64,000 nt of DNA from NCBI GenBank assembly GCA_030386875.1, contig CM059556.1, forward strand, positions 37,426,964 through 37,490,963. The letters are read 5' to 3'. This DNA is from Morinoia aosen (lineage: Eukaryota > Arthropoda > Malacostraca > Amphipoda > Talitridae). Made by a program: the position numbers and the translations under genes. The notes under the pieces are model-generated. The model searched no databases and had not been told where the DNA came from. It was given only the letters and a program-made list of their open reading frames with translations. The first letter of the stretch is position 1; each line of letters begins with the position of its first letter. Positions 15,401 through 21,400 of the stretch are shown one piece after another.

Positions 15401-18400
15401 GAGTGAGATAAGCACTCGTTCAATAAGCGTAACTCACAGGTCGACAGGAGCACCAGTGCCTGGCATGCCCTCAAACATGGCACACCGAAGCACCTCGGGA
15501 GCCATGTAGTTTGGCGTGCCACTCACATCTGCGCGCACCACCCCAAGTGCAGACGAATAAAACGGAATTGTAACACAAGTTGCATCCCCAATCAGACTGC
15601 ATGCTGCTCTACCTTGGGCTGTGAGACTTAATCTCACAATACATAAAAAAATAATAAGGTGCACAGCAGGAGCTTTAGAACTGCGATTCTTAGGAAAGTT
15701 AGCAAAACAAAACAATTTATTACAAGAGGATGGAAGTGCATATGAAAAATAGACATTGAAGTGACTGATCACCATACATAGAAGTGCAGAATGAATTTAA
15801 AAAACCAGTTACTTTGTACTTACTCATACTACATACTATCCAGAATAAATCAATTGTAGCCCAAATAGAATAAGATACAATCCATTCCAAAATTGAAGAG
15901 ACAGTTAATTGAGAAATAAATTAAATTGGGCAACAAGTAAAGCAATACATCAAGATGAAAATTAATATATAATACATAGAAAGAATGCCACAAAGCAGCA
16001 GTATGAAAGAAATGTATGATCAATGTGGAAATGAAAATGAAAGGAAATGCAAGACTTTTAACCAGTTGGCAATTAAAGTAACTTTCCAGGAAATATGAAC
16101 AAAGTCCAGGGAAAATTTGCTAATGTCACACTTCCAAATCAATCCACCATGAACAATTTGAATTTCCCCCAGAGTACTTGCCTATACAATTCTGAATTTA
16201 CTTCAACTAAAAATTGAAAACTACAAAGCTTACCAACTATTTTTTCAAGAAGTAAAATTACCTAGTTAGGTACAGTGTTTAACTAAACTAAATGAACAAA
16301 AATAACTGTAGCTTTATCAACAAGAACATTTTTTTAATCAGGACAATTTCTTGAAGTTTGTACTGAATCCTGCTGCTACTTCAAACAGCAAAAAATGCAT
16401 CCAAGTCAGCTAGCAGTTAATAGAACAAATGATACTCAATAAATCATTTTTATTCAGTTAAAATTAAGTATAGGTTATCAGGAAATAATATTTTACAGCT
16501 CATCCATTCCTAGACTATTTAAAGAACCCAGTATTTAGAATAGAAATTTACCAAATGTTGTAATGAACATAATTTATGAGAACCTTACAAAACATACACT
16601 TTATGGTGGTTCACATTTGGTTCCCCCAAGTTTAAAATGATTAACTGAAGTATTATTCAAGATTTTACCATTTTGTTATTTCTTTCAAAACAACATGAAA
16701 TATTTCTGCAACAAACTTAGCTAAATCAAATATTCATCCTTAAAGATGGCCAGCAGAATTACAAACGTTGAGATTGAAATTTTACCAATGAGTCAAAGCA
16801 CAGGTGCTCAACATGCTAAAATACAATGGCAAAGACCATGAGCACCACCATAATTGAAATGCTTGTATGTCATACAATGCATAACATGATGAGTACACAT
16901 GACAATATCTGATCAACAATCAGCATTTGTTACTGAAACATGTAAGAACTGCATCACAACATAAAACATAGGTAGCAGTTTGGGTAAATCTTCAGGTGCT
17001 GAAAAACAGGCACCCCTGAATAAATAAAAATTCTTTCCACCCCAACATTTGTCCCAATAGGCACTAGAACTATCATTTCTTCAACATGAGACACTAATGA
17101 AGAACATCAATTCCCCATAATGAACACATGCTCAAAATGGCTGCACAAATTTCAGCCATGAAAAAATTGCAAAATCCTAAGGACAGATTGCTATACAATA
17201 ACCTATAAGTAAAATAACCAGCAATAAATCAGCATTTACCAATAACTGTTTCACAACCTCACCAAACATTACAAAAGTTTCAAGAGCCTCAGAATCATTG
17301 GATGGCACAAAAAATCAACCTAATATTATAATTCAGACAGGGCAAGTCCAATTTCACTGTACAACAACAGCTAATAAATGACTCGTATAGGGTTACCCTA
17401 AACTGACGATTCCACACAACTCTACTACACTTAGCTGATGTGACTTTGAAATTGAAAATTTCTCCAATACATCAGACAAAAAAGCATAAATTTGCTGCAG
17501 AACAAACAAAAAAAAAAAGATTTTCCCTTCTTTATAAACAACAATAAAAACTTACACAGATTAGAAATGGTGAGCAAAAATTGAAACAAAGGGAAATACT
17601 CACCCCTGTAAAACACAACCATACCAAAGACAGTAACAAAATACTGGTAGCATTTCTCAGAATACCAAACAAACTTAATTGGCCAGATCTGAGAACACAT
17701 CCAGGCATAAGGGTTTCCACTATCGCATTTACAACTTCCTTTCTATTTTTAATAACTTGAAAAACTAGAGAATAACGCAGGTATAAGAGCAGAATTTATC
17801 TCCTTTGTATAAGATATTACTGCACCATGTCAAATTATGAATTTGAATTTATTACGCAATACCACTTGTGATTGCTGTGTATTAAGCATAAAATAATTTA
17901 TATCACTAAGAAAGTCACGCAGGGAAGGAGCATTACAAAATACCATGAAATTAAAGGCATGAGAACTTCTCAGACCTATGAAAATGAAGACAAAATTTTG
18001 TAATAAAACTACACAAGCATTAGTACAGACAGAGCCATGCTCAATAAAAAAAAAGACCATGCCAAACAAAAGAAAGCCCCAAGCAAAGCAAGCACTACTA
18101 TCAAGCAGCAAGCAAAATGCAAACACAGCTGAACAAAGAGTTTAAGAATGTTAATTGTAGATACAACAGACAATAACACACAATTGACTCATCATATGCA
18201 GTACACATTGTTTCTGCACAACACTTACCAGCAACAAGTTGGCAATGAGACTGACCTTACATCAATTGAAGCCCCCGTATACATATTTCCAGGCTTATTT
18301 CAAGATACTAATGCCTAACCACATGACAGGGCCCCGTGATTGGCTGAAGTAACTTGTAGCACACTAGCTCTAGCACGCATTTGCCACCAATATTTAAATG

Positions 18401-21400
18401 ACCACAAAACTGTAGATAACAACAGCTGCTCCAGTTGTATGAGATAAGTTAACAATATGATAAAAATTAAATAAATAATAGACATTTTGCCAAACAATAT
18501 TCATGTTTCAGCCCCACTTCTAGATATAAAAATACATAGAAGCTTCACAAGTACATTACATAAAATTGCTATAGGTAATTAAAGGTAGATTACAGAGAAA
18601 CTTAGGCATACAAAATTACTCAAGATATGTAATATGGAAGAAAAAATTTATTAAATGGTTAACATAGACAGAGTAAGAAGGCTAAAATCCATGTGCTGTT
18701 AATGAAATGTGCATCTTGTTTTACGTAGCTTAGAATTTTGGAAGAGTGAATTCAAAGTTTTACAGTCACATAAAGAAAATCTGTGCTGCACTATCCTGGT
18801 TTGAACCCAATAATTAAGCTCCTAACAAAATCAGAAAATACATTGAAACTCACCTTTAAATACAGATGATGATTAAACAAGGTATGTACATTTTTCACAC
18901 TGGCACATAGCCCAGAACAGAAAATCATGCATATATCACGTACCTGGTATAGGAAACACTGTTCTGTTTCTGACTCAGTTCTGTCCATAACTTGCTAATG
19001 TTAATTAGGCATCAATACCGTGAAACACAACTCAAGAAAGCTAACATGATGATCCCAATTACAACGTGATGTCTGGTTGCAACTTACTAATAGTAATTGG
19101 GCATTATAACCATGTAGCACCTCGTATGTTAACTGAGCCAATATCCCCAGTTGCAACATGGTGTCTGGTTGCAACCGACACATGGTACTAAGATATGATT
19201 ACCATGAACAAACTTCACAAACTGACTGACCCAATACATTGCACCATGTCTGATTGCAACTGACACATGGTATATGATTACCATACAGTGCCTCTCAAGC
19301 AAACCAACATCGAGTTTCTAAATGAAACCCAATTATTAGATGCAGTTCTCTGAGCACTTCCCTGACATTGTCAGGGCTGCACTACTCACAGGTCAACCTG
19401 CTCTCCATAGCCTGGGGCTCCTTCAATCATGTTCGCTCTCAGCAGCTCAGGCGCCAGGTAGCCAGGAGTGCCGCACAGTTCTGCATGTGGGGATTCGCAA
19501 GGATCGAAGCGGCAAAAAAAGCATGAAGAAGAGAAGAAATGTTCAGTGAGATTGAAAAATTTGAAATAAAAATATTAAGGAATTGAACAGAAAGAAAAGA
19601 AAATACCTATTGTAGAGAAGTGCATGAAAACATGCCCAGCAATTAGTAATGTGTAAAAAAGAATTTGAAGAAACAGGGTGTGTAAACAAGAAAATTAAAT
19701 TAAACACATCAAGCAGTAAATAAAAAATCAGTCAAACATCCATTAAACTTAACAGAAAAAATGCCAAGCATGCCCACAAAAAATAAAAATAAATGAGGAA
19801 ATGCCAAAGAAATACCAGAAAATAAGAAAATATTTAATCTAGGTGAAAAATAGTAGATTCGTATCTTTGAAGAAAAAAATAATACAAACTGGAAGAATAT
19901 GGAAAATTAAAAGCTTTGAGCCATAGAGAGCAAGCAAAAGTTTAACAAAGAGAAGAACATGAGAGAGCTAATAGCAACGAAAGGAAATAGCAATCACACA
20001 CTCTTGAGTGCACCTAAAGACTTGAATGAGCACTTAAAATCAACCAAAATAGAAGTAGCAATGACCACAATCACTTCAGAGCAACTAAAAAAATACAAAA
20101 ATAACTTGAAAATAAGTTCAAGTCAGACAAAGGGAATGAAAATTGTTGAATGGAAAAGAAATTAATTTCATTCAATGATAGAAACATGAAAGCAACATGG
20201 TGTTAAACTCAAGACATAAAAATTAAATAGAACATAATATAAAAAAGAATTTGGATATCAATTGAATGAAATTTAGTACACAGAAAAAAATTAAGTTAAT
20301 TCAATTAACACTTTGACCGCAGCGTGACCCACCGGTGGTACACGGAGGTAATTTTCACAACGCTGCAGACCGACCAGTAGTCACAAACACAATTTCCATA
20401 AATACTTAATCAAAGCTAAATGAAGGCACGATCCAGTTCATGTTAGCTATTTTCAACATCGCGCGCTGCAGTTGACTTTTAATTTGAGTTTGGTGTTGAA
20501 CTTAATATTTAGTAGTTGCGGTTAAAGTGTTAAAAAGTATACTAGAAAATAGCAAAAGAAAAGTTAATTTCAGTTGGAAAATCTGTTGAGAGAAAATAAA
20601 AAATGAAATATGAAAAAATTTGAGCAGAGAACACACATGATGCAATAGAGCAATGCAGGAGTTGAAGTGAAGCCTAAAAACATTTCTTAACTGTAAGGAT
20701 CAAAATATAAAAGTAAAAAATAATAAAAGATTGGGAAGTAAAATTGTGAGAACATAATGGAACAAAAAAGTAGCAAGCAGAAGTAAACAAAAAAATAGAG
20801 CCAGATTAAAGTATTAAGAAAGAAAGAAAGCACAGAGTAAAACAGAAGAATGAAATAAGAAGTATACTAAGCTGGAGAGTCAAAGGGAACTCAGGAAAGC
20901 TGAAGGCAGACTCAGGAAAGCCGAAGGCAGACTCAGGAAAGCGGAAGGCAGACTCAGGAAAGCGGAAGGCAGACTCAGGAAAGCTGAAGGCAGACTCAGG
21001 AAAGCTGAAGGCAGACTCAGGAAAGCGGAAGGCAGACTCAGGAAAAGTGAAGGCAACATCAGGTATGTCAAAGGCAGAAGCAGTCATGAAAGCATCCTTC
21101 ATATCACTAATATTATCTCCATCAATCCATAACACTATCTTTGGTTAAATGAACCAGCAAAGCACCTTTGACTATCAGCATCAAGGCTATAGCACAGTTA
21201 AATTTCCTCTTGAAGCAACAGATTTGACCAAGAAGCTAGCATATCAACTAACTGAGAGGGAGCACCAAAGGGAAGTTCCATTGTGCGTGTCTTATTAGTA
21301 CAATTCACATTAAATACAATGACATTAGGCAACTAATACTCATTTCAAAAATACTATCCTTTCCAAAAATAAATGATGAAAAATCTTATTGGATCTAAAA

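Follow-up and report, generated by a model that had tools for sequence, protein, structure and literature searches.

A putative mutually exclusive exon pair covering the P+1 loop of phosphorylase kinase gamma in the amphipod Morinoia aosen

Mutually exclusive homologous exons are already known in kinases. In the JNK genes (MAPK8/9/10), one gene carries two alternative exons, 6a and 6b (7a and 7b in one paper), inside the kinase domain, and the swapped segment follows the activation segment, starting at helix F. Substrate binding or activity is reported to depend on which of the two exons is used (PMC8699841; PMC8746764). FYN likewise has tandem duplicated, mutually exclusive kinase exons (FynB/FynT) with tissue-specific use (PMC9741552). 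Here we describe two alternative exons, 5a and 5b, in a gene of the amphipod Morinoia aosen which is, judged by its sequence matches, that of the catalytic gamma subunit of phosphorylase kinase (PhKgamma). The window, as we call the whole stretch of DNA analysed, is 64,000 bases long (G000:C1:37426964-37490963; 36.4% G+C, no N) and comes from an assembly of 1.99 Gb in 29 contigs. As in JNK, two alternative exons are located inside the kinase domain of one gene; unlike in JNK, the swap concerns the P+1 loop and the APE region itself, and the kinase is one kept active by an acidic residue of its own. Unlike 5a and 5b, the FYN exons do not reach the activation segment but cover the ATP site together with the SH2-kinase linker. 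To our knowledge, 5a and 5b would be the first case in which mutually exclusive exons exchange the P+1 loop of a kinase.

Mutually exclusive exons are also annotated by FlyBase in PhKgamma of Drosophila, where they are unlike each other in length and sequence (PMC3228551), which distinguishes this cluster of the same gene from 5a and 5b. In addition, database PhKgamma isoforms (X1-X5) of decapods, damselflies and a mayfly show the same either-or segment as computed annotation. No paper describing the PhKgamma exon swap was found in the open-licence literature, and PhK is not mentioned among the kinase examples in the accessible part of PMC7954323. The original prediction, made from the sequence of the window, that no switch of this kind had been described in this gene goes too far in view of the Drosophila annotation and of the isoforms already deposited; as a described switch, the swap is new as far as we know.

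Anatomy of exons 5a and 5b

The minus strand of the window carries the first eight exons (e1-e8) of the PhKgamma gene, with exon 5 present in two forms. All are preceded by AG and followed by GT, except exon 1, which was begun at its ATG.

Exon 1, 34045..34165, minus strand: 121 nt counted from ATG; donor gtaagt; 90% identity with PhKgamma of Hirondellea gigas across the part matched
Exon 2, 31819..31947, minus strand: 129 nt
Exon 3, 30455..30575, minus strand: 121 nt
Exon 4, 26706..26869, minus strand: 164 nt; HRD catalytic loop and DFG; ends with GETLM and one base
Exon 5a, 19390..19480, minus strand: 91 nt; common form; 28/31 residues as in Hirondellea gigas
Exon 5b, 15438..15528, minus strand: 91 nt; alternative form; 25-28/31 residues as in proteins P0001-P0004
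Exon 6, 5489..5518, minus strand: micro-exon of 30 nt, 10 residues, start of helix F; joined by both exons 5
Exon 7, 4439..4545, minus strand: 107 nt
Exon 8, 3328..3425, minus strand: 98 nt; the 3' border is likely, as a best guess
Two further exon matches, about -8327..-8488 and -11533..-11700: outside the window, 8-12 kb past its edge

We consider it probable (roughly 0.85) that 5a and 5b are mutually exclusive exons spliced one at a time, and that isoform B, which carries 5b, is active with a shifted target preference or holoenzyme contact. The pair would have arisen by exon duplication. One of the two would be spliced into each message, and frame loss would spoil messages with both or neither. 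Catalysis would be kept while the surface holding the target peptide is re-cut by the swap, and isoform B, expected to be active with a shift in P+1/target preference or in its contact to the holoenzyme, would appear in particular tissues or stages.

Exons 5a and 5b share 57/91 nt and 18/31 residues. Both are bordered by acceptors ending in cag and by GTGAGT donors, and their phases are equal: exon 4 ends with one codon base (G), while 5a and 5b both end with two (CT) that are completed by exon 6. The spliced sequences e1-e4-5a-e6-e7-e8 and e1-e4-5b-e6-e7-e8 are both open throughout 287 codons. As 91 is not divisible by three, joining both exons 5, or neither, shifts the frame and brings in premature stop codons downstream, and therefore only one or the other yields a kinase. 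Analysis of the spliced sequence thus bears out what had been predicted about equal length, intact AG/GT sites, equal phases, shared residues and the frame shift in both cases, and also the retention of an acidic residue at the exon start (E in 5a, D in 5b).

Ten of the 18 residues common to 5a and 5b are encoded by different codons, as expected of an old duplicate held by selection on the protein. When all 127,816 31-residue places in the six frames of the window were scored against 10 reference PhKgamma segments, none of them from the window and none of the 5b type, 5a (153) and 5b (113) ranked first and second, and the next place scored 39. A third exon 5 was also considered and set aside, as no further copy was present among the best five matches each of a tblastn search with four exon-5 peptides, covering window positions -20000 to 64000.

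The identity of the gene was examined with a PDB sequence search using 101 residues from exon 4 to exon 7 with 5a, in which R replaced M before exon 5, a one-residue difference from the window. The top five matches were PhKgamma (E 7.1e-46 to 4.7e-43), led by human PHKG2 (E 7.1e-46), and the next after them was a CaMKII (2.5e-23). The closest relative among the proteins listed is P0005 from the amphipod Hirondellea gigas, with 92% identity. For the C-terminal regulatory region, there are two stretches beyond the window edge that align with the C-terminal part of PhKgamma from Hirondellea.

Forms of the segment in other arthropods

A search with the 5b region only (40 residues) gave four proteins from four candidates (P0001-P0004). 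Their segment has 25-28/31 residues in common with 5b and 15-16/31 with 5a, and outside it they are 82-84% identical to the window PhKgamma over 220-254 aligned residues. The contigs of origin are 1236-2415 nt long; holding nearly a whole protein in 1.2-2.4 kb, while the intron after 5b extends over 9.9 kb in the window, they most likely represent spliced RNA. Other 5b-type reading frames occur in contigs of 1401-3030 nt (source 'lgn'; P0023, P0024, P0025, P0030, P0056 and P0100). P0056 and P0100 are more distant, and the closest match of P0056 comes from the termite Coptotermes (93.9% identity outside the exon).

With isoform A as query, the best 120 of 1499 proteins were listed, after scoring the 7993 candidates sharing most words. 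In six of the seven isoform pairs compared, from five species, the members are identical outside the exon and have common isoform or gene names and the same longest contig.

Penaeus, P0020/P0027: 100% outside the exon, 374 residues
Penaeus, second pair, P0017/P0026: identical outside the exon
Procambarus, P0015/P0028: 100% outside the exon, 358 residues
Cherax, P0011/P0031: 100% outside the exon, 358 residues
Damselfly Hetaerina, P0040/P0052: 100% outside the exon, 383 residues
Damselfly Ischnura, P0055/P0120: 100% outside the exon, 383 residues

A single segment between DFG and WACG was found in 139/140 proteins. The exception is P0123, a gene model of the mayfly Ephemera danica, which includes both segments in the order a then b, matching the window. 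The predicted mutually exclusive use is thus supported by a and b isoforms that are identical elsewhere and bear the names of one gene, and by contigs of complementary DNA (cDNA) size in which a 5b-type segment is joined to exon 6. We infer one-at-a-time use in Morinoia aosen itself, and likewise the way in which splicing is decided and a functional difference between the isoforms.

Were 5b a relic exon or a part of another gene, never joined to exon 6, its lower conservation between the window and decapods (19-22/31, compared to 27-28/31 for 5a) would be accounted for. We regard this as highly improbable, as cDNA-size contigs of relatives carry joined 5b-type segments, and 5b itself has intact borders and frame and is unchanged in a second assembly copy of the gene. 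A pseudo-exon was set aside on account of the same contigs.

In a census of the 140 proteins fetched, which is a ranked extract and not a survey of arthropods, Val or Ile at position 2 together with Ala at position 17 of the segment was found in 23 (P0001-P0004, P0022-P0033, P0052, P0056, P0073, P0100, P0103, P0120 and P0123). Positions 2 (L in a, V/I in b) and 17 (N in a, A in b) separate the two forms in 8/8 pairs, i.e. the window and seven others, including P0006/P0030, matched by 99.7% identity outside the exon and not by name. A search with the damselfly b segment, in which 28 of 45 candidates were listed, disclosed three b forms by this two-position rule (P0123, P0052 and P0120). No b form of beetles, bees, flies or other higher insects was among those listed, in a search too insensitive to show absence, since it missed the known mayfly b forms P0100 and P0103.

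A single origin of the a/b pair is, in our judgement, probable; the comparison of identities does not favour it. The alternative, that crustacean pairs and damselfly/mayfly pairs are separate exon duplications grown alike, is the less likely of the two, although it retains an appreciable share. Mean identity between crustacean and insect b segments (18.5/31, 15 comparisons) is no higher than between a and b (18.7/31, 30 comparisons; a-a 20.4), and a tree of the 31 columns, which does not decide between one and several origins, neither refutes nor demonstrates a single clade of b rows (p-AU 0.40), both as separate duplications would allow. Against them stand the two positions dividing a from b in every pair, the a-then-b order common to the window and Ephemera, and a branch of the same tree with all a rows and two unlabelled rows on one side (support 85/82), where labels and columns overlap and are not independent.

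Intermediates between a-type and b-type segments, in which Met is preceded by Ala or Ser, were seen in P0073 (Orchesella), P0078, P0134, P0136, P0139 and in chelicerate PhKgamma, e.g. P0130. Such forms may show the state before exon duplication.

Predicted effect of the swap on the kinase

The swapped 31 residues begin with the phosphomimetic acid, where the activation segment ends, and take in the P+1 loop, which includes GTPxYxAPE, and the loop that precedes helix F. Both exons retain GTP, Tyr and APE, and HRD and DFG are located in exon 4. Residues 2, 6 and 9 of exon 5 correspond to Leu198, Pro202 and Leu205 of PKA, which line the P+1 pocket, so that 5b alters two of the three: at position 2 the Leu of the a form gives way to Val in the window 5b, and position 9 changes from L to M. 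Other changes from 5a to 5b are C to S at position 3 and G to N at position 7, with more in the loop after APE. Substrate choice may differ between the isoforms. Position 1 is the acid that in rabbit PhKgamma (Glu182) replaces the PKA phosphosite Thr197, pairs with Arg148 and keeps the kinase active, as stated in a study of the human muscle holoenzyme (PMC10978961).

An AlphaFold model of the 5b-type protein P0003 has a kinase fold, with block pLDDT of 79-82 over the segment. In a fold search with this model the first nine matches were PhKgamma structures, 8z5r being first and 2phk, a complex with peptide, ninth. The model makes the 5b-type protein a plausible kinase, and shows no more than that.

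Alternatively, isoform B might have little or no kinase activity and compete with A for a place in the holoenzyme. Consistent with this are the Asp for Glu in 5b at the acidic residue that, in the rabbit enzyme, maintains the active state through its ion pair with Arg148 (PMC10978961), the changed C, G and L near it, and the lower confidence of the 5b-type model over the segment. On the other hand, HRD, DFG and the N-lobe are encoded by other exons and GTP..APE is kept, while the damselflies have the acid swapped the opposite way (D in a, E in b) and D is present in many single-form PhKgamma as well. Altogether, we give an impaired isoform B a slender chance and favour an active one.

Several observations weigh against an active isoform B made by strict exon choice. 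Segment confidence of 79-82 in the P0003 model compares with 88-95 in the model of the a-type P0005. The 5b of the window resembles decapod 5b in 19-22/31 residues, no better than decapod a and b resemble each other within species (20-22/31), so that the segments do not prove a common ancestor of all b exons. The seventh isoform pair, P0060/P0103 of the mayfly Neocloeon, differs outside the exon too (94% identical there), and the database isoforms named X are computed annotation. Finally, proteins of relatives tell which exon was used; double inclusion or skipping may still happen.

In vertebrates, the human muscle gene PHKG1 (Val) and liver gene PHKG2 (Leu) differ at position 2 in the same way as b (V/I) and a (L), although these are two genes and not two exons, and the rest of 5b is, by eye, not notably PHKG1-like. 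A speculative extension, on which we would place rather little weight, is that the exon switch predates the crustacean-insect split and sets Leu (a) against Val/Ile (b) in the P+1 pocket at the place where PHKG1 and PHKG2 differ, and that in the lineage of the window 5b has gone further, with S, N, M and T changes hinting at targets beyond glycogen phosphorylase. If true, splicing would give arthropods what vertebrates obtain from two separate genes. PhK, the first protein kinase found, is usually taught as a single-job enzyme that starts glycogen breakdown. Two natural isoforms differing within 31 residues make it directly testable whether PhK has more than one target, and such isoforms are already deposited for farmed shrimp and crayfish, which are easy sources of RNA and tissue.

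Introns, splicing control and the second copy

Introns around the pair measure 7225 nt (exon 4 to 5a), 3861 nt (5a to 5b) and 9919 nt (5b to exon 6). Steric exclusion is unlikely because the introns, including that between 5a and 5b, are too long. Of eight acceptors, that of 5b is the poorest in pyrimidines, with 9 in the 20 bases before CAG (others 10-15; 5a 13), which could be the look of a regulated exon. A search for paired intron elements between positions 14400 and 20600, outer introns not included, gave 19 weak inverted-repeat pairs, mostly AT-rich and none convincing. Introns of the U12 type were set aside, as 0/9 donors resemble the U12 consensus. Our guess is that 5a is the default, 5b is regulated, and mistakes are removed by frame loss.

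The same features might point to a switch that mainly sets the amount of kinase, with regulated double inclusion or skipping leading to nonsense-mediated decay and with A and B doing near-equal work. Messages with both exons or neither carry early stops, their destruction being assumed, and the pyrimidine-poor acceptor of 5b is one that a regulated exon might have. One poison exon would be enough for this purpose, yet a second coding exon with the conserved GTP and APE motifs has been retained, and the same two positions tell a from b in all eight pairs. We therefore consider dosage control improbable, if slightly less so than an impaired isoform B, and prefer a switch between two working kinases.

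Two tandem arrays lie close to the pair. One, at 15159-15390, is built of 24-27-nt units with the palindrome TGATCA and begins 47 bases past the donor of 5b, whose choice it might influence. The other, at 10126-11382 in the intron between 5b and exon 6, has about 76 copies of a 16-nt unit. Its minus strand repeats TTTTAGG, resembling a 3' splice site many times, and in the second assembly copy the array seems to be longer.

This copy, at C1:37.07-37.11 Mb, in the same orientation and ~355 kb away, is the only other gene at the level of PhKgamma among the candidates scored (136 of 285). Long matches spanning the gene (G000:C1:37059001-37109000, L019-L023) are 94-99% identical. The exons differ at 1/952 bases, with no differences in 5a and 5b, while the 150-base exon flanks differ at 43/2711 aligned columns. 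We take the copy for a second haplotype that escaped purging, or else for a recent duplication. Its unchanged 5b agrees with selection on this exon, at a divergence too low for proof. The assignment of 5b to a second gene was set aside, there being one gene and one near-identical copy. Several other kinase matches in the assembly also come in equal-scoring pairs, which suggests unpurged haplotypes.

Elsewhere in the window, an 87-nt repeat in four copies (3434-3788) lies a few bases upstream of the exon 8 acceptor. Long open frames at 44274-44933, 47537-49237, 52932-56801 and 59561-62953 resemble, as named by reading only, a DNA transposase, a reverse transcriptase, and copia-like and Ty3-like polyproteins.

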